NCBI RefSeq assembly: GCF_026991475.1
Contig: NZ_JALXBK010000090.1
Span: forward strand, 1-44,305
Origin: Sulfurimonas sp.
GTDB taxonomy: Bacteria; Campylobacterota; Campylobacteria; Campylobacterales; Sulfurimonadaceae
DNA: 44,305 nucleotides
Reading direction: 5' to 3'
The notes under the pieces were generated by a model, which was given only the letters and a program-made list of their open reading frames with translations, made no database searches and was not told the DNA's origin. The translations under genes were made by a program, and so were the position numbers. Of the stretch, positions 2,267 through 27,590 are shown piece after piece (within the stretch, counting starts at the first letter, position 1; each line of letters opens with the position of its first letter).

Positions 2267-4570
2267 ATGAAAAATTATATTTATGAAGTCGATATTGAAG
2301 GGCTGTTCTCTCTTTTTGAAGATAGAGCTACTGAAATAGAGTCTGCAAACTCTGTTTTGATTCAAATTTTTTCAGGTCAAGTGCAAGAGGAATTTGCAAA
2401 AGTTGTTACTTTTGTTCAGGAAAGATTTGTTAATGCTGTGGTAGTTTCAGCCTCAACAGATGGTGAGATTTATAATGAAAAGGTACTTACAAATAGTACG
2501 GTTATATCAGTCTCTTTATTTAATGAAACGGAGTTAAAAAGTAAATATATTGATACCAATTCAAGTTTTGAAAATGGTGCTGTGTTTGCAAAAGAGTTAG
2601 TGACATCAAGAACAAAACTACTACTTGCTTTTACAAATGGATTAAAATGTAATGGCGAAGAGTTCTTACGAGGAATTTACTCTGTAGCTCCTCATATTAT
2701 TGTTGTAGGTGGGCTCTCTGGTGATAATAGTAAATTTGAAAACTGTTTAATTGGTAAAGGTTCTGAACTTTATAATAGTGGTGCAGTAGCTGTTGCATTC
2801 GATTCTGATATTTTACAGGTAGATACCTTTTATAATTTTGGATGGAAAGGAATTGGTATTTCTCAAGAGGTTACGAAGTCTGAAAAAAATAGAGTATATA
2901 CTATTGGCAATTTAACAGCAGTTGCTTTTTATGAAAAATATTTGGGCGTAGAGATTGCAGAAAAACTACCAAAAATAGGCGTAGAATTTCCTCTAATTAT
3001 AGAAAAAGATCATTTAAAGATAGCAAGAGCGGTCTTAGCAAAACATGAGGATGGAAGTTTGAGTTTTGCTGGTAATATTGAACAAGGAGAGAGAGTTCGT
3101 ATAGGTATTGGGGATGCCCAAGAGATAATTAATAATCCAATTACAAGTGATAAGATTAATGTAGAGGTATTTTATATCTATTCATGTATGGCTCGTCGTC
3201 GTTTTATTCCAGATCTTATAGAAAAAGAGATAGCCCCTTTTGCTGAGCTTGCACCTACGAGTGGATTTTTTACTTATGGAGAGTTTTTTACAAATGATAA
3301 ACCAGAACTTTTAAATCAAACACTTACTGCAGTGGCTCTCTCTGAATCAGAAGCTATTTATACTATCAAGCATACAAATATAACAGAACCACAGAATAAT
3401 ATCACTCATAAAGCATTGAAAAATATACTCCATGCAACAACAGAAGAGTTATATAAAGAGACCTCTCGTATTGATGGGATCGAAAAAGAGTTACTTGTTC
3501 AAAGGGAAATAGTATCTCTTATTCAAAAAATGGCAAAGATGGCTAGTTGGGAGTTGATACTTGACAAAGAGGAAATTATTTGGTCGGTAGAGTCATATGT
3601 TATATACCAAAGAGATCCAAAGCTTGGTCCACCAACGAAAGAGGAATTTATTTACAAAATGGTACTTCCTGAATATAGAGAGAAAGTTCTTGAATTGACT
3701 CAAAATGCAAAGAATGGAGATAATTTTACACTAGAGATGAAAGTAAAAAGAGGTGATTCAAAAGTAATTACTGTTATTGATAGTGCAAAAATGATTTTTA
3801 AAGATGAAAAACCTTATAAGCTTGTAGGTATTACTATAGACTTAACAGAAATGAGAATGAAGGATGATATTATTTCACAACAATCAAAGTTAGCACAAAT
3901 GGGTGAAATGGTAAATATGATAGCGCATCAATGGAGGCAACCACTTAATGCCGTGAGTGCAGCATCTATTAAATTGAGTATGCAAGATGAGATGGATTTA
4001 TTAACGAGTGCAAAAGTTCAGGAGACGACGGCTTTTATTGGTGAGATGGTTCAGGAGATGTCCAAGACCATTGATGATTTTATGAACTTTACAAAACCAA
4101 CAGATACTAAAGAGTCTGTATTCTTTCAAGATATTGTTGATGATATTATGCGTCTTATGCAAGCACAGTTAAAAAATCATAATATTGATTTTATAGAGGA
4201 GATAGATAAAAATTTATCTATATTGACCTATAAAAAAGATTTGGAGCATGTTTTAATCAATCTTTTTTCAAATGCTAGAGATGCTTTTGAAGGAAAAGAG
4301 ATTAAAAATAAATTTATAAAACTAAAAGTTTTCTATGAAGAAAAAAATTGTATTGTTCAAGTAAGTGATAATGCAGGAGGTATATCTGCTGATGTTATTA
4401 ATAGAATTTTTGATCCTTATTTTACAACAAAGGTACAGGGTAAGGGAACGGGTTTAGGTCTTTATATGAGTAAAAAGCTACTTGAGACAACGATTGATGG
4501 GGTAATAAGTGTGAATAATATTAATGATGGTGCGGAATTTAGCATTGTTATGAAGGATTGTGTGGTTTAA
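2267..4570 (+). CDS. FIST-domain sensor histidine kinase (FIST-PAS-HisKA-HATPase)
   Basis: Soluble sensor kinase of 767 residues with no membrane segment. Residues 25-225 look like FIST_N (SASTDGEIYN near 61-70; VVGGLSGD near 146-153) and 225-370 like FIST_C (YSCMARRRF near 305-313). FIST is a predicted small-ligand sensing module. A coiled stretch (385-425) and a PAS-like domain with a PAC end (about 425-530) follow. The kinase core has H-box AHQWRQPLN with H554, N-box around N669, G1 DNAGGI at 701-706 and G2 GKGTGLGLYMSK at 725-736. All residues needed for autophosphorylation are present. It sits between two receiver-output genes with 1-base spacing on each side, so it probably phosphorylates REC-GGDEF-EAL, REC-PP2C and REC-GGDEF; this is inference. 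The window encodes a second FIST kinase at 22694-26557. The ligand is unknown. Confidence 0.93.
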   Translation: MKNYIYEVDIEGLFSLFEDRATEIESANSVLIQIFSGQVQEEFAKVVTFVQERFVNAVVVSASTDGEIYNEKVLTNSTVISVSLFNETELKSKYIDTNSSFENGAVFAKELVTSRTKLLLAFTNGLKCNGEEFLRGIYSVAPHIIVVGGLSGDNSKFENCLIGKGSELYNSGAVAVAFDSDILQVDTFYNFGWKGIGISQEVTKSEKNRVYTIGNLTAVAFYEKYLGVEIAEKLPKIGVEFPLIIEKDHLKIARAVLAKHEDGSLSFAGNIEQGERVRIGIGDAQEIINNPITSDKINVEVFYIYSCMARRRFIPDLIEKEIAPFAELAPTSGFFTYGEFFTNDKPELLNQTLTAVALSESEAIYTIKHTNITEPQNNITHKALKNILHATTEELYKETSRIDGIEKELLVQREIVSLIQKMAKMASWELILDKEEIIWSVESYVIYQRDPKLGPPTKEEFIYKMVLPEYREKVLELTQNAKNGDNFTLEMKVKRGDSKVITVIDSAKMIFKDEKPYKLVGITIDLTEMRMKDDIISQQSKLAQMGEMVNMIAHQWRQPLNAVSAASIKLSMQDEMDLLTSAKVQETTAFIGEMVQEMSKTIDDFMNFTKPTDTKESVFFQDIVDDIMRLMQAQLKNHNIDFIEEIDKNLSILTYKKDLEHVLINLFSNARDAFEGKEIKNKFIKLKVFYEEKNCIVQVSDNAGGISADVINRIFDPYFTTKVQGKGTGLGLYMSKKLLETTIDGVISVNNINDGAEFSIVMKDCVV

Positions 4571-4571
4571 A

Positions 4572-5735
4572 ATGGCGTATAATTTAAAAATATATGAAAG
4601 TTTAAATATTTTATGTGTAGAAGATGATGAAAGTATTCGTAACATTTATGATGCTATGTTTTCTCTTGTATTTAAAAATGTCTATTTGGCTGAAAATGGA
4701 AAAGAGGGATTGGAAATTTTTCAAAAAGAGAAGATAGATATAGTACTTACAGACCACTCAATGCCTGTTATGGATGGGCTTGAGATGAGTAGGAAAATAC
4801 GAGAAGTTGATGCTACTATTCCTATTGTTATGATTACTGCTATTGAAAATATAAATATGTTACGAGATGCTATAGATATTCGCATAACAAGTTTTATAAA
4901 AAAGCCAATTTCTTCACAAAGTATCTTTTCTACTTTAGAGTTTGTGGCAAAATCAGTTTTGGCAGAGCGGCTTTTGGTGCAATTTCAAAAAGAAAAATTG
5001 CTTTATAGTGAGTACCAAGAGAATTTAACTTATGAAAAAGAGAGAACAATCATAAAAAATGATGTTGTGGAAAATAGATTTTTAAATTTTGAATGTGAAG
5101 TTTTTTTTCAACCACGAGATACTTTGAGTGGTGATAGTTATAGCATACGCAAAGTTGATGAAAAGAGGTATTTCGCTTTTATTGTGGATGGTATGGGCAA
5201 GGGAATCTCTGCTTCGGTAACTGCTATGATGTGTTGTGCTTATGCAAATCATATTGTAAATGAAATCATAGTTACAAAAGATGACTTTTCTCTTTCTTCA
5301 TTAATTACAAGAGTTATGAAATTTTTAGCACCAAATTTGTTGGAGGATGAGGTTATCTCTGCTTCTTTCTTATTTTTTGATGGGAAAGAAGAGATAATGG
5401 AGTATGCAATGTTTTCTATGCCTGCTATGCTGTATGTAAGTAAAGAAGATAAAAATGTACATAAAATCAAATCAAATAATCCTCCTCTATCTGCATATAC
5501 AAGTAGTGTAAATAGCACTCGTATAGGAGTGAATGATATAGATAAATTTTTATTTTTTAGTGATGGTGTGAATGAAAATAGCCTCAAAAAATCTCAAGAT
5601 TCTTATGCAAAATTTTTACATAATGATTTTTTAGAGAGTGCCAATTTAGAAGAGTTTGAATTAAAAAGAGTAGAAAAAATTGAAGAGCAAGAGGATGATG
5701 TTACTTATATTTTTTTAAAAAATAGGAATAATTAA
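4572..5735 (+). CDS. Response regulator with SpoIIE/PP2C-type Ser/Thr phosphatase output
   Basis: 387 residues when started at ATG 4572, directly after the kinase stop; a GTG at 4560 in frame would overlap the kinase and adds only four residues. The receiver (about 9-125) has VEDDE, phosphoacceptor D61 (LTDHSMP) and the KKP lysine. A coiled linker is followed by a SpoIIE-type PP2C domain (about 170-385) with the metal-binding motifs SGDSY, VDGMGKG, FFSDGVNE and a terminal DDVT, so it should be catalytic. Relatives of this REC-PP2C layout dephosphorylate anti-sigma-factor antagonists or related STAS proteins (RsbU/SpoIIE logic). No STAS or anti-sigma kinase gene is visible in the window, so the substrate is unknown. 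Placement between a FIST kinase and a diguanylate cyclase suggests one sensor feeding both a phosphatase and a cyclic di-GMP branch. Confidence 0.9.
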   Translation: MAYNLKIYESLNILCVEDDESIRNIYDAMFSLVFKNVYLAENGKEGLEIFQKEKIDIVLTDHSMPVMDGLEMSRKIREVDATIPIVMITAIENINMLRDAIDIRITSFIKKPISSQSIFSTLEFVAKSVLAERLLVQFQKEKLLYSEYQENLTYEKERTIIKNDVVENRFLNFECEVFFQPRDTLSGDSYSIRKVDEKRYFAFIVDGMGKGISASVTAMMCCAYANHIVNEIIVTKDDFSLSSLITRVMKFLAPNLLEDEVISASFLFFDGKEEIMEYAMFSMPAMLYVSKEDKNVHKIKSNNPPLSAYTSSVNSTRIGVNDIDKFLFFSDGVNENSLKKSQDSYAKFLHNDFLESANLEEFELKRVEKIEEQEDDVTYIFLKNRNN

Positions 5736-5736
5736 T

Positions 5737-6633
5737 ATGAATTTAACAGTTTTATATGCAGAAGATGATGAACGAACAAGAAAAGAGATAGGAGAAATTT
5801 TATGCCTAAAGATTCAAAAAGTGCTTACTGCAAAGGATGGGGCAGAAGCTTTAGAACTTTTCAAGAAAAATAGTGTTGATTTTGTGATTAGTGATTACAG
5901 AATGCCAAAGAGGAGTGGAAATGAGCTTTGTAGAGCAATAAAAGAGATACAACCTCAGGTGCCATTCGTTCTTTTGACTGCATTTAATGATACTGAGTTA
6001 CTTACCGGTGCTATAGATGTAGGAGTAGATAAATTTTTGCAAAAACCACTTGAAATAAACCAATTTACAAATCTTTTAAAAGATGTTGAAAATAAAATAG
6101 CACTACGTCTTTCACTTGAAAAGAGTTGTGAAAAAGAGAAATCCAAACTTATTAAAAAAGCAAATTCTGATCCTATGCGGGGAATATCAAATAAAATGTT
6201 TTTATTGCAAAGGTTGGAGACTCTTTTACAATATTCACAAAGAGAAGAAGATATTATAAGTGTTATCTTTTTTGATATAGATAATTTCAAACATATTAAT
6301 GGCGAATATGGTCATATGTATGCCGATAGACTCTTAGTAAAATTAACTGAGTTAGTAAAAAAACATATACGAAAAGATGATCTTTTTGGACGATGGGGTG
6401 GGGATGAGTTTGTTATTGTTGTGAAAGAGCATTCAAAAGAGGCAGTTCTAAAATTTGTAGATAAACTTTATAGAGTAATAAATGGACATAACTGGAGTGA
6501 TGATATGGGGATTACTGTTACTTTAGGTGTTGCATTTAATGATGGAAAAATAGATGCAAAAGAGCTTGTGTCTCAAGCAGATTTCAAAATGTTAGAGGCA
6601 AAAAAAATGGGGAAAAATAGATGGCAAGATTAG
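5737..6633 (+). CDS. Response regulator diguanylate cyclase (REC-GGDEF)
   Basis: 298-residue cytosolic protein expected to make cyclic di-GMP from GTP. The receiver (about 3-118) has AEDDE, phosphoacceptor D53 (ISDYRMP) and K103 (LQKP). The GGDEF domain (about 140-298) has an intact GGDEF at 221-225 and, five residues upstream, RKDD at 212-215, which matches the RxxD inhibitory I-site, so product feedback is expected. FFDIDNFKHIN gives the first metal Asp. The entry motif is divergent (SDPMRGISN instead of the usual DxLTGLxNR). The gene begins one base after the PP2C stop, and its last 13 bases overlap the next gene. It is the best candidate for the active cyclase of this cluster, opposing the EAL protein at 583-2265. 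Confidence 0.93.
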   Translation: MNLTVLYAEDDERTRKEIGEILCLKIQKVLTAKDGAEALELFKKNSVDFVISDYRMPKRSGNELCRAIKEIQPQVPFVLLTAFNDTELLTGAIDVGVDKFLQKPLEINQFTNLLKDVENKIALRLSLEKSCEKEKSKLIKKANSDPMRGISNKMFLLQRLETLLQYSQREEDIISVIFFDIDNFKHINGEYGHMYADRLLVKLTELVKKHIRKDDLFGRWGGDEFVIVVKEHSKEAVLKFVDKLYRVINGHNWSDDMGITVTLGVAFNDGKIDAKELVSQADFKMLEAKKMGKNRWQD

Positions 6634-8525
6634 TATTTATTTTTGCTCTTTTAGTGATTACTCTTTATGCAGATAGTATAGATAATTTACTTGGGATGAT
6701 ACAAAAAAAGAGTGACCTTTCGCAGAAGACAAAGCTTGCAAATAGTGGTGTCTCGTTCGTATGGACACGTGATGATTTAGATAGAATGCAAATTACAAAT
6801 CTTAAACAGATTTTAAATACAGTCTATCCTTTTGGATATAATGAAAACAGATATGGTTTAGTTGATCCACTTACATATAATGCTGGTCAACCTTTTTTAA
6901 GTTCTACTGTCCGTCTTTACATTGACAATCAAGAGATAACAACGGGACTCTATGGAAGTGGTGTTTTTCTTATGGGTGATACTAACATTGACTGGGTTGA
7001 TCATATAGAAATATATACAGAAAATCCAACATATGAATATGCAACAGAATCAACGGTAACACTCATAAAACTCTACACTAAAAGTGTAGCTAAAGATGAG
7101 GGAAGTATGTTAAAAGTTGCAGGGGGAAGTTATGGTGCATCAACTTTAGACGGCTATAATGCTGGTTATGTTAATGATTGGTCATATTTTGTATTTGGAC
7201 TTGCTTCAAATGATAAAAGAGAAAAACACTATAGTTACACAACAGAGCTGTCACGAAATAAAAAGTTGACTAGCGTGGTAGGAACTCTTCATAAGGGTAC
7301 TACAAATATACTCTTAACTGCATTCACTCAAGATAGAGATGGTTTTATGAATGCAAGTTTAGATGCTACACCAGAAAAATCAAAACTTTATTCAGAGTAT
7401 ATACATCTTGGAATTGATTCTAAGATAAATAATTTCTCTTATCTTTTAACTACGAGTTATACAAAAACAAAAGCTGAGATGTTAGATAATGTAACGCCTA
7501 TATCTTCAGCACCATATTATGGCATGTTTCCCATAAAATCTACACAAACAGATACACGTTCCTATGTATTGACAGGGGAAGTAAAATACAAATACCATAA
7601 AGAGAACAATACCCTTTTGACTGGTCTTAAATATAGAACCAAAAGAGCAAAATGGGATAAAGCTCTCCTTAATGGTATTAATATGGCAGAAAATGATAAT
7701 ACACGAGTACAAAATATAGCAACTGCATATGTCGAAAATCAATATGCACTCCATAAAAACTCTATTTTTACTTTGGGTGCAGAGTATCAAAGGATAGAAA
7801 ATAGAGATACCGTACAAAATGACAATTTACTTATGTATAGAGTAGGGCATACATATACAACAGATAATTGGACAATGAAAACTTTTTATTCACATACACT
7901 CTCTACTTTAGAACCATATCTTGTAAAATCATTTGCATTTACAGCACATCCTCTCTCTTACTATAAACCTTCACAAAATGATACACTTGTAGAAGATATA
8001 TTATATGAGAAAAAAAATAATAAGTATGAGTTGATTGTTGATTATACACAAGGAAAAGATTACTACATTCCTTTAGATGCTGGAAAAATAGTTAACTATG
8101 ACAAAATACTAAAAATGGGTGGAGTTGAAGCACGATGGACGCACTTTTATCATGGTTGTGATAAGTTTTTTGTACAAGGAGGATATAGAGTTATATATAA
8201 TACTCCTAAAGAATATTTTACTACTCTTAAACAATATAGAGCAGTTGTTAGAAATATTAATACTTTTGATAAATTTGATATTTTTAATGAATTGATATAC
8301 GATAGAAATAATGTCTCAAATAAAGATTTTTATAATTATAGTGCAGGGGTGCAGTATAACTATAGCAATAGTTTTACTTTTGCTATAAAAGGGGTAAATC
8401 TTTTTGATGATGCAAGAACAACTAACTATGCACGAACAAATCCTATAACATTTCAATCAGAAAAAGAGCTGAATATATCACCAATTGATAGAGAGATACA
8501 AATAAGTGTGAAGTGGATTTTTTAA
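6621..8525 (+). CDS. TonB-dependent-receptor-like outer-membrane protein
   Basis: 634 residues. The N-terminal signal peptide (MARLVFIFALLVITLYA) probably ends at residue 17. Residues about 40-155 look like a plug domain (a region starting SFVWTRDDLDRMQITNLKQIL-like, ending in a VDHIEIYTEN motif), and the remainder is a long alternating, aromatic-rich beta barrel. The protein ends SVKWIF, with the terminal Phe typical of outer-membrane barrels. No clear TonB box is visible after the signal peptide. ATG 6621 overlaps the diguanylate cyclase gene, and the next gene starts on its stop codon. In known envelope signalling, receptor-like barrels of this kind can occur next to YfiR/DUF4154 proteins and kinases or cyclases. 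That context suggests a sensing rather than a nutrient-uptake job, but the ligand and any transport activity are unknown. Confidence 0.82.
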   Translation: MARLVFIFALLVITLYADSIDNLLGMIQKKSDLSQKTKLANSGVSFVWTRDDLDRMQITNLKQILNTVYPFGYNENRYGLVDPLTYNAGQPFLSSTVRLYIDNQEITTGLYGSGVFLMGDTNIDWVDHIEIYTENPTYEYATESTVTLIKLYTKSVAKDEGSMLKVAGGSYGASTLDGYNAGYVNDWSYFVFGLASNDKREKHYSYTTELSRNKKLTSVVGTLHKGTTNILLTAFTQDRDGFMNASLDATPEKSKLYSEYIHLGIDSKINNFSYLLTTSYTKTKAEMLDNVTPISSAPYYGMFPIKSTQTDTRSYVLTGEVKYKYHKENNTLLTGLKYRTKRAKWDKALLNGINMAENDNTRVQNIATAYVENQYALHKNSIFTLGAEYQRIENRDTVQNDNLLMYRVGHTYTTDNWTMKTFYSHTLSTLEPYLVKSFAFTAHPLSYYKPSQNDTLVEDILYEKKNNKYELIVDYTQGKDYYIPLDAGKIVNYDKILKMGGVEARWTHFYHGCDKFFVQGGYRVIYNTPKEYFTTLKQYRAVVRNINTFDKFDIFNELIYDRNNVSNKDFYNYSAGVQYNYSNSFTFAIKGVNLFDDARTTNYARTNPITFQSEKELNISPIDREIQISVKWIF

Positions 8526-8932
8526 TGAAATTTTTATTTTTATTACTAACGCTTTTTGTCTCTTTATATGCGGATGTCTATACACAAAAGTTATATGAGA
8601 CTGTTTTAGGTTCAATTTTTAAAGAGAGACCAATTGTTGTTTTTGCTACGGGTGATGTAAAGGCTACACTGCAAAATAGTAAAATGTTTGATGTAGTTGG
8701 CAATTGCAAAAATGCTGTTGTAGCAGTTATTGGAAATGACACAAGTTTAGAACAGAGATGTAAAAATATACCAATATTTGCGACGACACATAGAAATTAT
8801 ATGCGCATTTTAAATGCTTTTGGAGCGTTTTATTGGAGAAAAGGGCGTCCACAAATTCATTTTAGAGAGGGAGAATTAAAGATGTTTCATCTTCATTTGT
8901 CTCATGATTTACAAAGGTTTATAGATGAATAA
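8525..8932 (+). CDS. Small periplasmic protein, possibly YfiR-like (DUF4154-like)
   Basis: 135 residues from ATG 8525, which overlaps the TAA of the barrel gene (TAATG). An in-frame GTG at 8513 would only place MDFL ahead of a clean signal peptide, so it is rejected. The signal peptide MKFLFLLLTLFVSLYA is followed by a mature domain of about 119 residues with two cysteines (C61, C80) that could pair. A C-terminal stretch near 99-122 (GAFYWRKGRPQIHF) resembles the end of YfiR-type proteins, where a glycine-rich turn precedes a strand. YfiR proteins are periplasmic repressors or sensors acting on membrane signalling enzymes. The family call is inference from size, compartment and neighbours: an outer-membrane barrel upstream and a membrane kinase overlapping its 3' end. 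Confidence 0.6.
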   Translation: MKFLFLLLTLFVSLYADVYTQKLYETVLGSIFKERPIVVFATGDVKATLQNSKMFDVVGNCKNAVVAVIGNDTSLEQRCKNIPIFATTHRNYMRILNAFGAFYWRKGRPQIHFREGELKMFHLHLSHDLQRFIDE

Positions 8933-10373
8933 TAATGTTTTTTTTAAGAAGAGTTTTTATATAACTTATGTGACAGTAATTGTACTTATTGTAGGTGCTT
9001 TTTATATCTTTAAAATATTTGATAAGACAAGTAGTGATATAGAGAGATTAACACTCCAATCTAATATTGAATATATTAATAATATCACAAATAATCTTGC
9101 TAATTTGATAAACAAAAAAACAGATATGCAACTTGTAAATAGTTTAAAAATAAGTAAGGTATTAAGAAGAAGTTTGGAAGAAAACTTAGGGATGTTTAGA
9201 ACGAAGCGATATAAATATATTTATGTTGTGCAAAAGTTACCAAACACAGAGAAATTTTGCTTTTTACTCGATGGAGCAAAAAAAGATAAAAGTGGTTTTT
9301 TAGAAATTTTTCAACCTTTTAATATTCAAGAGTGGTTAGAGGTGTACAAGACAAAAAAACCACGTTACTTTAAACATCGAAATATTAAAAGTTTATGGCT
9401 GACTTACCTCAAACCTATTGTGCAACACAATAAAGTTGTTGGAATTATTGCCATAGATTTTTCGTTGAATGAGTATAATTATATGCACAATACACTAGAT
9501 GATCTCTCGTTTAGTATAAAGATTTTTATGAGTTTGTTGTTATTTGTTTTTATTGTTGTTTTAATTTTTGTATTTATAGATAAAAAACGGGTTTATTTAC
9601 TTAAAAAACAGGCAAAAGAGATTCAAAACTTTAATATTACGCTACAAAAAAAGATAGATGAAGAGGTAATAAAAAATAGAGAAAAAGATAAACAGATCTT
9701 AGAACAGTCGCGTTTAGCACAGATGGGAGAGATGATAGGAATGATTGCACATCAATGGCGACAGCCCATTAATGCTATTAGTGCAGCAAGTATTACTATA
9801 AATATGCGAGCACAGATGGATACACTAGATCCAAAAAGTACGATAGAACTTGCAGATAAAATAGGGGAGCTGACGCAACATCTTAGTAAAACTATTGATG
9901 ATTTTAGAAATTTTTTCAAAGATACAAAAGAGAAACAAGATATGACTTATGATGAGTTGGTTATTTCTACACTTGATATTGTTGGCGTATCGGTTCAAAA
10001 TAAAAATATTACTATCATAACAGATATACAAAGCGATATAGTTTTTTGTACTTATGTTAATGAGTTAAAGCAGGTGTTATTAAATCTTATAAAAAATGCA
10101 GAAGATGTACTAGAGGAGAAGAAGATAAAAAATGCTTTTATTAAAATCGAAGCTGTAGAAAATCGTTTAATTGTTCGAGATAATGGTGGAGGAATACCTG
10201 AAGATATTATTCAGAAAATATTTAATCCATACTTTTCAACAAAAACACTGAATGGAACAGGTCTTGGACTTTACATGAGTAAGACAATCGTTGAAAATCA
10301 TTGTGGAGGTACAATTAGTGTAACAAACGATGCTGAGGGTGCAGTTTTTTGTGTTGTGTTGCCTAGTACATAG
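8925..10373 (+). CDS. Membrane sensor histidine kinase with periplasmic domain
   Basis: 482 residues: transmembrane segment about 11-31, a periplasmic domain of about 165 residues (32-196) that looks like a single Cache-type sensor, second transmembrane segment about 197-218, a coiled stretch (225-262), then the kinase core. H-box AHQWRQPIN carries H276; N-box includes N391; G1 is DNGGGI from D419; G2 is NGTGLGLYMSK at 443-453. All catalytic motifs are intact. The ATG lies inside the end of the preceding periplasmic-protein gene, so translation is probably coupled. It is the likely inner-membrane partner of the barrel and the periplasmic protein, and could feed the receivers encoded upstream; no receiver gene follows it. 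The core is close in style to the kinase at 2267-4570. Confidence 0.92.
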   Translation: MNNNVFFKKSFYITYVTVIVLIVGAFYIFKIFDKTSSDIERLTLQSNIEYINNITNNLANLINKKTDMQLVNSLKISKVLRRSLEENLGMFRTKRYKYIYVVQKLPNTEKFCFLLDGAKKDKSGFLEIFQPFNIQEWLEVYKTKKPRYFKHRNIKSLWLTYLKPIVQHNKVVGIIAIDFSLNEYNYMHNTLDDLSFSIKIFMSLLLFVFIVVLIFVFIDKKRVYLLKKQAKEIQNFNITLQKKIDEEVIKNREKDKQILEQSRLAQMGEMIGMIAHQWRQPINAISAASITINMRAQMDTLDPKSTIELADKIGELTQHLSKTIDDFRNFFKDTKEKQDMTYDELVISTLDIVGVSVQNKNITIITDIQSDIVFCTYVNELKQVLLNLIKNAEDVLEEKKIKNAFIKIEAVENRLIVRDNGGGIPEDIIQKIFNPYFSTKTLNGTGLGLYMSKTIVENHCGGTISVTNDAEGAVFCVVLPST

Positions 10374-10421
10374 TTTTTTATTTAATTAAAATGCAAAAGT
10401 TAGTCATTAAGTAAAAGTTGA

Positions 10422-10427
10422 TATAAT
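10422..10427 (+). promoter_or_regulatory. Sigma-70-type -10 element for the DUF2018/hemA operon
   Basis: A perfect TATAAT lies 34 bases before the ATG at 10462, in AT-rich sequence after the end of the signalling cluster. The -35 region is weak, as usual in Campylobacterota. An AAGAGG Shine-Dalgarno sequence follows at about 10450-10455. Confidence 0.6.
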
Positions 10428-10461
10428 CCTAAAAATTAAAATTGAAAAAAAGAGGTTTAAT

Positions 10462-10749
10462 ATGAGCTATGCAGCTTTATTTGAAGATGAAGAAGATATT
10501 TTTGGTGGTTCACCAAGATCAAAATTTATGGATGTAGTTTTTAATGCAAACAATGATATTGTACGTCAAGAACTAGAGAATTTTATAGAAAAAGTTGCGG
10601 TGATGGAACTGATGCTAGAAGAGCATGTTGGTGAAGATATTGATAAAGCAGTAGATACTTATAGAGCTACACATCTTGATGATGCAAGTACAAAAACAAA
10701 AAGTCTTTATGTTGAGCTAATGGGGACTGTTCTTTCTCAAAGTGAATAG
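10462..10749 (+). CDS. DUF2018 family protein (HP0242-like)
   Basis: 95 residues, acidic, all helical in appearance, no signal peptide or membrane segment. The segment EDIFGGSPRSKFMDVVFNA followed by a helix rich in E, L and M matches my recollection of H. pylori HP0242 (EIFEGNPLDKWNDIIFHA), the type member of DUF2018, whose homodimer has a knotted/pseudoknotted helical fold. Gene order supports it: HP0242 sits close to the ispB-hemA-proS-hemC genes HP0240-HP0237, and the same set follows here. The molecular function is not known. It is the first gene after the promoter at 10422. Confidence 0.78.
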   Translation: MSYAALFEDEEDIFGGSPRSKFMDVVFNANNDIVRQELENFIEKVAVMELMLEEHVGEDIDKAVDTYRATHLDDASTKTKSLYVELMGTVLSQSE

Positions 10750-22693: not shown

Positions 22694-25600
22694 ATGAAAC
22701 AGTTTAATATTAATTACTCCTCAAAAGAATCTTTTAAAAACTATCTTCATGAGAATGATATTGTATTTGCAAATGACAAAATTTTGGTACAAATTTTTAC
22801 GTCGTTTCGTGAAAAACATAAGGTACAAAAAATAGCATCTGAGATATGTGAAGTTTTGCCAAATGCTGTTTTGATAGGATCCTCGTCTGCAGGTGAAATT
22901 ATTGATGGTTTAATGCAAGAAGAGAGCTGTGTTGTTGCTATATCTGTGTTTGAAAAAACAAAGATTGTTGCAAGTTATGTTGAAGGCGAAGATGCATACT
23001 CTATGGGTGTCTTAATGGCATCAAAACTTTTAAATGAGAAGAGCAGATGTTGTATTAACTTTGTAGATGGCTTAACCATCAATGGAGATGAATATCTTAG
23101 AGGTTTTTCTACTTTAAATACAAATAGTGTTATTGTATCTGGTGGTATGAGTGGGGATCTTTTCACATTTGACTCTGTATTTTGTATTTATCAAACAAAA
23201 GTTCTTAGTTCTGCTGCTGTTGGTATTTCATTAGAAGGTGATGAGTTATATGCTTTTAATGCTTATAATTTAGGATGGCGGGCTGTTGGCCCAAAATTTA
23301 CAATTACAAAAGCCGTAGGTAATCGTGTTTATGAAATAGATAATAAACCTATCAAGGAGCTATATCGAGAAGTTCTTGGGAGTAAAATTGTAAGGAATAT
23401 GCCGGCTTCAACAATAGAATTTCCTTTTATAAAAGAAGTTGATAGCATTCCAATTGCCAGAAGTATGATAAATATAATGGAAGATGGAAGTGTTATATAT
23501 GCAGGAGAACTTAATGAAGGCGATGTAGTTCGTTTTGGTGTAGGTAGTAAAGAACTTATTTATGACCATAATATGAGTCAACTAATAGCCTCTAAAGAAC
23601 ATGATATACAGGCCGGATTTATCTACTCTTGTTCTGGAAGAAAACAGTTTTTGGGAAAAGAGCTTGAATCTAATTTTCAATATTATGAAAAGATTGCCCC
23701 TGTAAGTGGTTTTTTTACTTTTGGAGAATTTTTTTCAGGTTTGAAAGAGCCTTCTTTGCTCAATATTACAACAACACTTCTTTTTTTATATGAAAAAGAT
23801 ACAGAGAACATATCTAAAAACAGATATACAAATAAATCACTAAAAGATGATAAGCAAAAAACTTTAACAAACAAAGGTTTATTCAATCTCGTTGACTATG
23901 TGACAAAAAATTTAGATTTTGAAAAACAAAATATGGAAAAATCTAAAAAGAGGCTCGATGAACTTTTAGAAGCTATTGATAGTGTTTCTATTATTTCTAA
24001 AACAGATAGTAAAGGTATTATTACCTATGTCAATGATGCCTTTGTAAAAATAAGTGGCTATTCGCGTGAAGAATTATTAGGACGTAATCATAATCTTGTT
24101 CGGAGTCCAAATAGCGATGCCGCTCTTTTTAAAGAGATGTGGCAAACGATACAAAAAGGAGAGATCTGGCAAGGAGAGTTAGAAAATAGAACTAAAGATG
24201 GGCATTTATATTATGTGAAAAGTTCTATTATTCCTTTGCATGATATAAATGGAAAAATTGTAGAATATTTGGCAATAAGGGAAGATGTTAGCTCTTTGGT
24301 TGGGAGTAAAAAAGAGATTGAAAAACAAAATGCATTAACAAATATTATTCTTGATAATGAAGAGAGTATTATTATACTTACAAAAAATGATGAAATTGAC
24401 AAAATAAATGAAGCATTTTTTAGAACATTTCCTTATGAAAACTTGGAGACATTTAAGAGTTGGCATAGGTGTATTTGTGAACTATTTATTGAGAAGGAGA
24501 ATTATCTTCAAAAGAAATTAGATGCATCTCAAAGATGGTATGATCCAATTTTACATGAACCTTTTATAACACATTTAGCTGCTATGATTGATAAAAATGG
24601 AAATGAAAGAATTTATCATGTAAAATCAAAGGAAATTATGTATGATGAAGATACCGCATATGTTGTAAGTACTTTTCATGATATTACAGAGATAGAGCAA
24701 GCAAAACAAAAAGCACAAAAAGCTGAAGCAGCACAAGCAATGTTCTTGGCAAATATGTCTCATGAAATAAGAACACCAATGAATGGCATAATAGGTTTTA
24801 CAGAGCTTCTTGAAAAAACGCCTATGAATGAATCTCAAGAAAAATATGTAGATATTATAAAAGGCTCCACGCAAACTCTTTTGGGTATTATAAATGATAT
24901 ATTAGATTTTTCAAAAATTTCTGGACAAAAAATAGAACTTGAAAATTTAGAGATTAATCCCTATCATGAATTAGATGCAACTTTTGAACTTTTACGTGCT
25001 GTTGCCGAGAAAAAAAATCTTGATTATGTAAAAAAACTAGATACGAATATGTTTGAATGTATCTATACAGATCCTACTCGCTTAAGACAAGTTTTAACAA
25101 ATTTACTTTCTAATGCAATTAAATTTACCCCTGAAGATGGTAGTGTGAGTCTGGAGACACATGTTTTAAATACGAATGAAGAATCACAATTTATACGATT
25201 TGAAGTTAAAGATACTGGTATTGGGATTCCTCAATCAAAACAGAAGACAATATTTGAACCTTTTTCACAAGCTGACTCTTCTACGACAAGAGAGTTTGGT
25301 GGAACGGGATTAGGATTAAGTATTAGTAATAGTTTTGTAAAAGCTATGGGAGCTGAACTTTGTGTAAAATCGAAGGAGAAAGAGGGATCTGTTTTTTATT
25401 TTGATTTGGAATTTAAGAGATGTAATTCATTAATTGAATTAAAAGAACTTATGCAACAATGGAAAGTTGTTATACTAGAGGATGATGATGAAATATTATT
25501 ACAAAGGGTTGGTGATATTTTATCTTCATTTGGAGTTGTATATGAAATAGTTCCAAAAGAGCTAGCCGACACTTTTGTCTTAGGAACTAAAAGTATTGTA

Positions 25601-26557
25601 ATAGCTTTTGAAAATATTAAAGAGTTCTTATTTTTAAAAGAATTTCCAAAAGATCAAATTATTTGTTTATCTGAGAAAAAACTATTTGATTATTCTATAG
25701 AATGTGTTGATTTAATTATAGATGAGTCGTTAGCATCAAACTTATATAATTTTTTATTTAGAAAATTAAAAAATAAAAATATTGAGAAAAAACAAATTGA
25801 ACATAATAGTATTGCTTTAAATATATTAATTGCTGAAGATTATGAGATGAATCGAATTCTGATGGAAACTATTTTTGAACAATATAAAAATATTCGTATT
25901 ACCTTTGCAAAAAATGGAGACGAAGCGGTTGCAAAAGTTTTTCATAATGATTTCGATATGGTTCTTATGGATGTTAATATGCCTATTCTCAATGGATTGG
26001 AAGCAACAAAAATAATAAGAAAAAAACTCTCTAAACATATTCCTATTATTGCTTTGACTGCAAATGCCCTTGAAGGAGATCGCGAACGATTTTTAGCAGC
26101 TGGAATGGATGATTATCTTTCTAAACCAATTGAAATCGGTAAACTCGAAGAGATATTACAAAAATTTGCACAAAACAGAATAGTTGAAAATTTTAAACCA
26201 AATGAAGAGATAGAAAAAAATATTTGTTTGGATGATATGGTTGAAAATATTACACAAAATTTAGGTGTTGCACCTGAGATGGCGATTACATTACTACATA
26301 GTTTCTACTCTAGTCTTGATCTATCTTTTATAGATTTACAAAAGGCTGTCCAAAGTAGAGACAATCAGATGATTTTAAATCTTGTACATAAAATAAAAGG
26401 TTCATCTTCTACAATGAGAATTGACACTATTGCATCTTTGATGCAAGAAATAGAAGAAAAAGTTAAAAAGGGTGAAACGATTAATTATGATAAAATTTTT
26501 GATATAATGCAGAAATATTTAAAATCATTACAAAGAGAATTAAAAAATGTTTCATAA
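22694..26557 (+). CDS. FIST-domain hybrid sensor kinase with two receivers and HPt
   Basis: 1287-residue soluble phosphorelay protein. FIST_N about 25-215 and FIST_C about 215-370 (YSCSGRKQF at 311-319); coiled linker to 420; PAS 1 about 422-535 with PAC end; PAS 2 about 545-668; HisKA with H690 in MSHEIRTPMNG; HATPase with N-box N807, G1 DTGIGI (840-845), G2 GGTGLGLSIS (869-878). A first receiver-like domain (about 922-1025) keeps EDDDE at 929-933 but has IVIAFENI where the phosphoacceptor Asp should be, so it is a pseudo-receiver. The second receiver (about 1041-1160) has D1093 (LMDVNMP) and K1144. A C-terminal HPt domain carries H1232 (VHKIKGSS). The relay H690-D1093-H1232 would end on an external receiver; the next gene (REC-HD-GYP) overlaps by 11 bases and is the best candidate. 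The FIST half is a paralogue of the kinase at 2267-4570. Confidence 0.93.
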   Translation: MKQFNINYSSKESFKNYLHENDIVFANDKILVQIFTSFREKHKVQKIASEICEVLPNAVLIGSSSAGEIIDGLMQEESCVVAISVFEKTKIVASYVEGEDAYSMGVLMASKLLNEKSRCCINFVDGLTINGDEYLRGFSTLNTNSVIVSGGMSGDLFTFDSVFCIYQTKVLSSAAVGISLEGDELYAFNAYNLGWRAVGPKFTITKAVGNRVYEIDNKPIKELYREVLGSKIVRNMPASTIEFPFIKEVDSIPIARSMINIMEDGSVIYAGELNEGDVVRFGVGSKELIYDHNMSQLIASKEHDIQAGFIYSCSGRKQFLGKELESNFQYYEKIAPVSGFFTFGEFFSGLKEPSLLNITTTLLFLYEKDTENISKNRYTNKSLKDDKQKTLTNKGLFNLVDYVTKNLDFEKQNMEKSKKRLDELLEAIDSVSIISKTDSKGIITYVNDAFVKISGYSREELLGRNHNLVRSPNSDAALFKEMWQTIQKGEIWQGELENRTKDGHLYYVKSSIIPLHDINGKIVEYLAIREDVSSLVGSKKEIEKQNALTNIILDNEESIIILTKNDEIDKINEAFFRTFPYENLETFKSWHRCICELFIEKENYLQKKLDASQRWYDPILHEPFITHLAAMIDKNGNERIYHVKSKEIMYDEDTAYVVSTFHDITEIEQAKQKAQKAEAAQAMFLANMSHEIRTPMNGIIGFTELLEKTPMNESQEKYVDIIKGSTQTLLGIINDILDFSKISGQKIELENLEINPYHELDATFELLRAVAEKKNLDYVKKLDTNMFECIYTDPTRLRQVLTNLLSNAIKFTPEDGSVSLETHVLNTNEESQFIRFEVKDTGIGIPQSKQKTIFEPFSQADSSTTREFGGTGLGLSISNSFVKAMGAELCVKSKEKEGSVFYFDLEFKRCNSLIELKELMQQWKVVILEDDDEILLQRVGDILSSFGVVYEIVPKELADTFVLGTKSIVIAFENIKEFLFLKEFPKDQIICLSEKKLFDYSIECVDLIIDESLASNLYNFLFRKLKNKNIEKKQIEHNSIALNILIAEDYEMNRILMETIFEQYKNIRITFAKNGDEAVAKVFHNDFDMVLMDVNMPILNGLEATKIIRKKLSKHIPIIALTANALEGDRERFLAAGMDDYLSKPIEIGKLEEILQKFAQNRIVENFKPNEEIEKNICLDDMVENITQNLGVAPEMAITLLHSFYSSLDLSFIDLQKAVQSRDNQMILNLVHKIKGSSSTMRIDTIASLMQEIEEKVKKGETINYDKIFDIMQKYLKSLQRELKNVS

Positions 26558-27590
26558 TGTAAGTATAGTAATTGTTGATGATGAGACGTTAAATCTGATT
26601 TTATTAGAAGAACTGATAAAACAAGAGGGGTATATTAATTATAAAACTTTTTTGGAACCTTCTAAAGCACTAGAATATGCAAAAGAGAATAATGTAGATG
26701 CTTTAATTACTGATTATAATATGCCAAAAATGGATGGAATTGAGCTCCTTCAAAAAATGAAAGCTCTTCATCCAGACATGGTAAGTATTATGATAACGGC
26801 AAATAATGATACTGAAATGATGGAATATGCTTTGCAAAGTGGTGTGACCGAGTTTTTGCTAAAACCGATATTTCCTATTACATTTAAATTACGTTTGAAA
26901 AATATATTAGAGCTGGCATTTTCTTTGGTAATAAATAAAGATTTTAATAAAATTTTACAGCAAAAAGTTGAAGAGACAACTGATGCATTAAAAGAGAGTG
27001 AAGAAGAAATTTTAGAAGTTCTTTCTAATGCAGCAGAGTATAAAGATCCTGAAACCGCAAGCCATATTGCAAGGGTGGCATACTACTCTAAACTTATAGC
27101 TAAAAAATATGGACTTGATGAAGAGGAGCAAAACATTTTGTTTTATGCTGCTCCTTTACATGATATTGGTAAAATAGGAATTCCTGATAGTATTTTACTG
27201 AAACCTGGAAAATTAACAAAAGATGAATTTGAGAAGATGAAAGAGCATTCTAAAATAGGGGCAGGTATCTTATCTTCAAAAAACAATGAGTATATAAAAG
27301 CAGGTAGAGTTATTGCACTAACGCATCATGAAAAGTATAATGGGCAAGGCTATCCTGAGGGATTGCAAGCTGAGAATATTCCATTATTTGGTAGGATTGT
27401 TGCTATTGCAGATGTCTTTGATGCATTGACTTCTCAAAGACCTTATAAAAAAGCTTGGACCTTTGAAAATGCATTGAATCTACTTATTGAAGAAAAAAAT
27501 GAATATTTCGATCCACAGCTTGTGGATATTTTTGTCGATGCACAAGAAGAGGTAAAAAAAATTTATATGGAGTTCCAAGAAGAAGTATAA
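26547..27590 (+). CDS. Response regulator cyclic di-GMP phosphodiesterase (REC-HD-GYP)
   Basis: 347 residues. Receiver about 5-122 with VDDE, phosphoacceptor D56 (ITDYNMP) and K106 (LLKP). A coiled linker leads to an HD-GYP domain (about 150-345) with HDIGK at 205-209, a full HHEKYNGQGYP (260-270) and IVAIADVFDALTSQRPYKKAW, so it should hydrolyse cyclic di-GMP in the cytosol. The start overlaps the end of the hybrid-kinase gene, implying coupled translation and a kinase-regulator pair. The gene runs tail to tail with the double-receiver gene, only 12 bases separating the stops. Confidence 0.94.
   Translation: MFHNVSIVIVDDETLNLILLEELIKQEGYINYKTFLEPSKALEYAKENNVDALITDYNMPKMDGIELLQKMKALHPDMVSIMITANNDTEMMEYALQSGVTEFLLKPIFPITFKLRLKNILELAFSLVINKDFNKILQQKVEETTDALKESEEEILEVLSNAAEYKDPETASHIARVAYYSKLIAKKYGLDEEEQNILFYAAPLHDIGKIGIPDSILLKPGKLTKDEFEKMKEHSKIGAGILSSKNNEYIKAGRVIALTHHEKYNGQGYPEGLQAENIPLFGRIVAIADVFDALTSQRPYKKAWTFENALNLLIEEKNEYFDPQLVDIFVDAQEEVKKIYMEFQEEV

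Follow-up and report, generated by a model that had tools for sequence, protein, structure and literature searches.

A TonB-receptor-like barrel, a miniature YfiR-like protein and a membrane signalling protein form a conserved gene module and a candidate envelope relay in Campylobacterota

Can a protein built like an outer-membrane receptor pass a signal through the periplasm to a membrane kinase? The question is raised by three overlapping genes at 6621-10373 of Sulfurimonas sp. contig NZ_JALXBK010000090.1 (the window, the whole stretch of 44,305 nucleotides that was analysed), which had been predicted to encode a TonB-receptor-like barrel, a small two-cysteine periplasmic protein with a YfiR-like end and a kinase with a periplasmic domain that could feed the cyclic di-GMP (c-di-GMP) receivers just upstream. 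The observation itself is confirmed: barrel, small protein and kinase are encoded by co-directional ORFs on the + strand (6621-8525, 8525-8932 and 8925-10373) with overlapping ends. The junction between barrel and small protein is TAATG, a 1-base overlap (13 bases if the GTG start at 8513 is used), and the small protein and kinase genes overlap by 8 bases. The trio forms the 3' end of a packed same-strand run of seven genes beginning at 583, in the order REC-GGDEF-EAL, FIST-PAS kinase, REC-SpoIIE, REC-GGDEF, barrel, small protein and kinase, with the following features:

583-2265, + strand: REC-GGDEF-EAL response regulator, first gene of the seven-gene run
2267-4570, + strand: cytoplasmic FIST-PAS histidine kinase, a probable second input to the same regulators
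4560-5735, + strand: REC-SpoIIE response regulator (PP2C-type phosphatase), a likely output of the kinase
5737-6633, + strand: REC-GGDEF response regulator, a likely output of the kinase
6621-8525, + strand: outer-membrane plug-and-barrel protein, TonB-receptor-like, 634 aa
8525-8932, + strand: mini-YfiR, exported protein of 135 aa (from the ATG) with a predicted YfiR fold, the C61/C79 pair and a signature hairpin
8822-8851, + strand: signature hairpin of mini-YfiR, aa 100-109 (GAFYWRKGRP)
8925-10373, + strand: membrane histidine kinase, 482 aa, third member of the trio
8925-9569, + strand: sensor module of the kinase, aa 1-215 (TM, extracytoplasmic PDC/cache-like domain, TM)
9693-10370, + strand: transmitter of the kinase, with HQWRQP H-box and HATPase_c

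The REC-GGDEF gene overlaps the barrel gene by 13 bases and is absent from that place in the nearest relative; REC-SpoIIE is kept beside the trio in the related loci L031 and L035. The assignment of the upstream receivers to c-di-GMP holds for the REC-GGDEF (5737-6633) and REC-GGDEF-EAL (583-2265) proteins but not for REC-SpoIIE (4560-5735), which is of the PP2C type. Promoter-like sites are no more frequent than in shuffles.

The barrel protein comprises an N-terminal stretch (aa 19-43), a plug (~aa 40-155) and a 22-stranded barrel (~aa 161-634). Its structure model (mean pLDDT 88) places the plug inside a barrel of ~22 strands, the arrangement of TonB-dependent receptors, and in structure comparison matches BtuB (TM 0.69-0.73), PfeA and FhuA, bearing out the predicted receptor likeness; the Pfam Plug match, at 15.9 bits, lies below its cut-off of 23.9. 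This full plug-and-barrel fold, like that of BtuB and PfeA, together with the TonB encoded in the window's genome, would suit an ordinary TonB-driven transporter whose adjoining signalling genes report uptake or regulate an import operon. However, 0 of 32 trio barrels showed a TonB box when a loose pattern was applied to their N-terminal sequences (a stricter one had missed the boxes of control receptors), as had been noted for the window's barrel, and a conserved stretch, approximately SDLSxKTKxExxG, stands in these 32 barrels where the box is expected. Two TonB-receptor genes outside such trios in the same genome provide an internal control, encoding the box-like ENINVSA and SPINIES. The confidence of the barrel model is low at this position, and the absence of the box therefore rests on sequence. 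Moreover, no transport genes were found to travel with the trio, and 36/38 mini-YfiR genes adjoin a barrel, all of which makes a mere transporter improbable.

The small protein begins with a signal-peptide-like segment, and its two cysteines, noted earlier, are C61 and C79. It matches no Pfam or NCBIfam family, PF13689 (DUF4154, YfiR) included; PF13689 likewise exceeds its cut-off in none of 38 relatives taken singly and nowhere in the window's genome, and a sequence search of solved structures with the small protein returned no match. Its relationship emerges from the modelled structure: with the AlphaFold2 model (pLDDT 90), Foldseek places YfiR structures at the top rank (TM 0.5-0.64, probability ~1), and comparison by VIA with YfiR chains gives Z 9.8-10.4 over 117-123 of 135 residues, against Z 6-6.6 for the first unrelated folds. 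Profile comparison with DUF4154 gave a probability of 93% with the signal peptide included but of 10% (E 0.003) without it, controls lying at the weaker E 0.12-0.56 and the reversed ones among them at E 0.12-0.13, and was dropped as main evidence for YfiR because the signal peptide carried most of the match. For this reason the small protein, termed mini-YfiR, is called YfiR-like by predicted fold and gene position and not a member of PF13689. The YfiR likeness first proposed thus stands at the level of the modelled fold (Z about 10), which also speaks against an unrelated family, but not as a PF13689 match.

Conservation within the mini-YfiR family is strongest in the hairpin G-A-F-x-W-x-K-G-R-P, with G100, W104, K106, G107, R108 and P109 kept in 95-100% of the 38 relatives. 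The strand by which YfiR binds YfiN and YfiB is known (PMC4655355; PMC3375315), and the hhalign alignment sets the hairpin on this strand, although the correspondence is approximate. YfiR corresponds in fold to one half of an ABC-type solute-binding protein, a structure that would suit ligand binding equally well, and the main rival to a signalling relay is ligand capture, in which the barrel would be a selective pore rather than a signalling partner and mini-YfiR a one-lobed solute-binding protein docking, once loaded, on the kinase sensor. The top Foldseek ranks do hold 3LKV (a Vibrio YfiR relative) and a Rhodothermus binding protein, and ABC substrate-binding proteins (3LKV, 3LFT with L-Trp and the Rhodothermus SBP) are found among the fold matches beside YfiR. 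However, mini-YfiR has one lobe only and lacks a second that could close over a ligand, and its most conserved residues form the GAF-W-KGRP hairpin, at the strand that in YfiR binds partners (an approximate position in hhalign); we regard ligand capture as rather unlikely.

The two cysteines occur together in 30 of the 38 relatives, are both absent from 7 and are found singly in 1, as expected of a disulfide. P. aeruginosa YfiR, which has two cysteine pairs (PMC4655355) where mini-YfiR has the single pair C61/C79, reacts to periplasmic redox conditions without the need for YfiB (PMC3375315). With C61 and C79 gained and lost together, mini-YfiR might similarly be the sensor itself, responding to periplasmic redox state or envelope stress through C61-C79 while the barrel only anchors or titrates it. 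This is very unlikely, however, given that the trio is kept in the 7/38 relatives without both cysteines and that the invariable barrel would be left unexplained.

In the kinase, two membrane helices flank an extracytoplasmic domain and are followed by the H-box and the ATPase, in agreement with the original prediction. HATPase_c is matched at 1e-19 and HisKA at 7.5e-5, under its cut-off, with an HQWRQP box, and these kinase domains share the run with REC genes, as in two-component systems. The trio kinase and the FIST kinase (2267-4570) have transmitters that share 48% identity, which would fit cytoplasmic and envelope inputs acting on shared regulators. The sensor domain has no Pfam match above cut-off, and a sequence search of solved structures with it returned no match. 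The first ~215 residues of the third protein, which comprise this domain and its two membrane helices, are homologous across kinase, GGDEF-EAL and GGDEF types (hhalign E 1e-41 to 1e-61), and a profile derived from the kinases also matched GGDEF and GGDEF-EAL proteins through this common N-terminus.

Conservation of the trio was surveyed in order- and genus-level relatives and in 80 loci from named genome records, the latter mostly from Sulfurimonas, Sulfuricurvum, Sulfurovum, Arcobacter, Hydrogenimonas and other Campylobacterota, with a few MAGs labelled Aquificaceae or Desulfurellales in their records. After duplicate removal, 85 of ~95 distinct loci are complete (a barrel and a recognised output) with the order barrel, small protein, membrane output protein, and most of the exceptions are cut by contig ends. 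Gene order and tight, mostly overlapping junctions recur across the phylum, more than by chance. A reciprocal test in 60 whole genomes found a mini-YfiR next to 35/37 sensor-domain matches; conversely, 35/38 mini-YfiR genes adjoin a sensor domain and 36/38 a barrel. The set is present in 27-28 of the 60 genomes, and the remainder are without both mini-YfiR and sensor domain. Barrel-like matches apart from the set were weaker or fragments, with one strong partial match at a contig edge. The trio is a conserved module, its parts present or absent together, and the expectation that the three genes would be neighbours elsewhere is borne out by both surveys (85 of ~95 loci; 60 genomes). Two loci stand out in other respects: L131 (1-4948) has two tandem pairs of barrel and mini-YfiR ahead of a single GGDEF-EAL gene, and L100 (CAMCYD010000073.1) is a kinase-type trio on a MAG contig titled Helicobacter pylori PMSS1, a label that looks doubtful.

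The output encoded by the third gene varies. Single-pass domain searches, in agreement with Pfam, assign GGDEF-EAL to 51 distinct loci, a histidine kinase to 19 and GGDEF to 15. The kinase types group together on a single branch of the barrel tree (support 89), with at least 7 switches of output class overall. Since the third protein of most sister trios combines this sensor domain with GGDEF or GGDEF-EAL, the link to c-di-GMP is stronger than the original prediction could know. The best evidence for this link comes from outside the window, in the receiver genes near kinase-type trios. A same-strand receiver gene lies within 4 genes of 13/17 kinase-type trios, as opposed to 1/43 and 0/10 (1/53) for the cyclase types (Fisher p 7e-10, the loci being related); because these trios share a single branch of the barrel tree, the 13/17 cannot be counted as independent. 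Most of the receivers belong to REC-EAL, REC-GGDEF, REC-GGDEF-EAL, REC-HD-GYP or REC-SpoIIE proteins, so that regulators, mostly equipped with a c-di-GMP enzyme domain, usually accompany a trio that has no such enzyme of its own.

Other sensors occur beside kinase-type trios. FIST (NosP-like) proteins recur there, either as a FIST kinase or as a free FIST protein (window 2267-4570; L035, 3034-5334; L036, 2103-3230). NosP is a nitric-oxide sensor, so that the same regulators might also receive a gas or redox signal. At 22694-27590 the window holds another sensor-to-c-di-GMP unit, in which the gene for a second FIST kinase, a 1287-aa hybrid combining PAS, receiver and Hpt domains, overlaps a REC-HD-GYP gene. 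In L037 (10243-13155) and L094 (ORF 6), a kinase of 960-970 aa beside the kinase-type trio has a fused extracellular solute-binding (NMT1-like) region, checked against Pfam in L037 only, and its transmitter shares 47-49% identity with the one in the trio kinase.

Computation establishes the gene linkage, the folds, the shared sensor domain, the exchange of outputs and the placing of regulators near kinase types only. The trio is kept in dozens of species, mostly with a c-di-GMP enzyme, and hence probably carries outside signals inward. YfiB sequesters YfiR, freeing YfiN (PMC4655355, PMC4887326, PMC3375315), and by analogy the trio is probably a trans-envelope relay of the YfiBNR kind, with a TonB-receptor-like barrel standing in for YfiB and the inner-membrane protein under the control of mini-YfiR. 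In such a relay, the barrel, lacking a TonB box, would sense a ligand or state at the cell surface and would bind or release mini-YfiR through its plug and N-terminal stretch, which form the periplasmic face. Free mini-YfiR would then dock on the cache-like extracytoplasmic domain and set the activity of the inner-membrane protein, presumably by repression, as YfiR does. The window's kinase would pass phosphate to receivers of its own operon, probably REC-GGDEF and REC-SpoIIE and possibly REC-GGDEF-EAL, shifting c-di-GMP and a PP2C-type regulator, whereas most sister trios would use this sensor domain to drive a GGDEF or GGDEF-EAL enzyme directly. On balance, these trios appear to be an undescribed, phylum-wide class of sensor, in which a barrel turned pure receptor signals through a miniature YfiR to one sensor domain with exchangeable outputs, the kinase clade being a derived swap that gained c-di-GMP and PP2C-type response regulators.

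The closest known systems are YfiBNR and HmsCDE (Pseudomonas, Escherichia, Yersinia), in which a YfiR-fold periplasmic protein is likewise encoded with an outer-membrane protein and an inner-membrane signaller bearing an extracytoplasmic sensor, and in which the output is c-di-GMP, as in most relatives of the trio. However, the outer-membrane partner in YfiBNR is the OmpA/Pal-type lipoprotein YfiB and not a TonB-receptor-like plug-and-barrel protein, and mini-YfiR is shorter than YfiR, falls outside PF13689 and has one cysteine pair rather than two. YfiN is a membrane diguanylate cyclase, whereas the output of the window's trio is a kinase and that of most sister trios a cyclase. A widespread YfiR-YfiN core, often without YfiB and with GGDEF-EAL, HPT or a kinase as the alternative output, was reported by Malone and colleagues in 2012 (PMC3375315). 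As in the trio, the YfiR-type protein of these pairs adjoins a membrane protein with an exchanged output; the pairs were found by homology to the P. aeruginosa Yfi proteins, whereas the mini-YfiR family escapes PF13689, and the text contains 0 occurrences of TonB (PMC3375315). The FecA and FpvA TonB-dependent transducers, which act with anti-sigma factors, are also plug-and-barrel receptors that signal inward, as proposed for the trio. Unlike these, the trio barrel has no N-terminal signalling domain, no TonB box was seen in it, no anti-sigma/ECF pair accompanies it, and its signal would travel by way of a separate protein with the YfiR fold. A literature search for YfiR together with TonB receptors, outside whose scope lay subscription journals and preprints, returned unrelated papers only.

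A modular YfiR-YfiN core with interchangeable outputs is therefore already known. By contrast, the literature searched gave no description of the TonB-receptor-like barrel as a fixed outer-membrane partner, of the Pfam-invisible mini-YfiR family or of the shared sensor domain, and these look new. The claim of an undescribed system would hold for these three parts but not for the core, and the original interpretation is only partly supported, since one of the presumed c-di-GMP receivers is of the PP2C type, the core was reported in 2012 (PMC3375315) and the flow of signal is a proposal. The signals that activate YfiBNR are given as unknown in published work on that system, and a barrel with a fixed YfiR-type partner offers a receptor whose ligand can be sought. 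The natural exchange of a cyclase for a kinase plus regulator on one sensor domain similarly provides a ready-made test of modular signalling. To our knowledge, few routes lead from an event at the cell surface to c-di-GMP without a transcription step. If the proposed relay is correct, several TonB-receptor genes of Campylobacterota would probably encode sensors and not transporters, with three such trios in the window's genome.

Related arrangements are also built on longer YfiR proteins. In several Campylobacterota genomes, canonical DUF4154 genes sit between a barrel gene and a GGDEF or GGDEF-EAL gene, and triads with a canonical or long YfiR (e.g. L179, L181, L186, L189) have the same gene order and positional roles as the mini-YfiR trio. 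However, their YfiR proteins are longer (170-200 aa), several are matched by PF13689, and the sensor profile of the mini-YfiR trio found no match in the 18 loci searched. The third trio of the window's genome (L189, G000:C45, 3390-7957) has a 182-aa YfiR-type protein that is missed by Pfam and a HAMP-GGDEF-EAL output. In the second (L061, G000:C1, 6631-10080) the output is a GGDEF protein directly, and the trio is followed immediately by luxS, encoding autoinducer-2 synthase (10166-10681).
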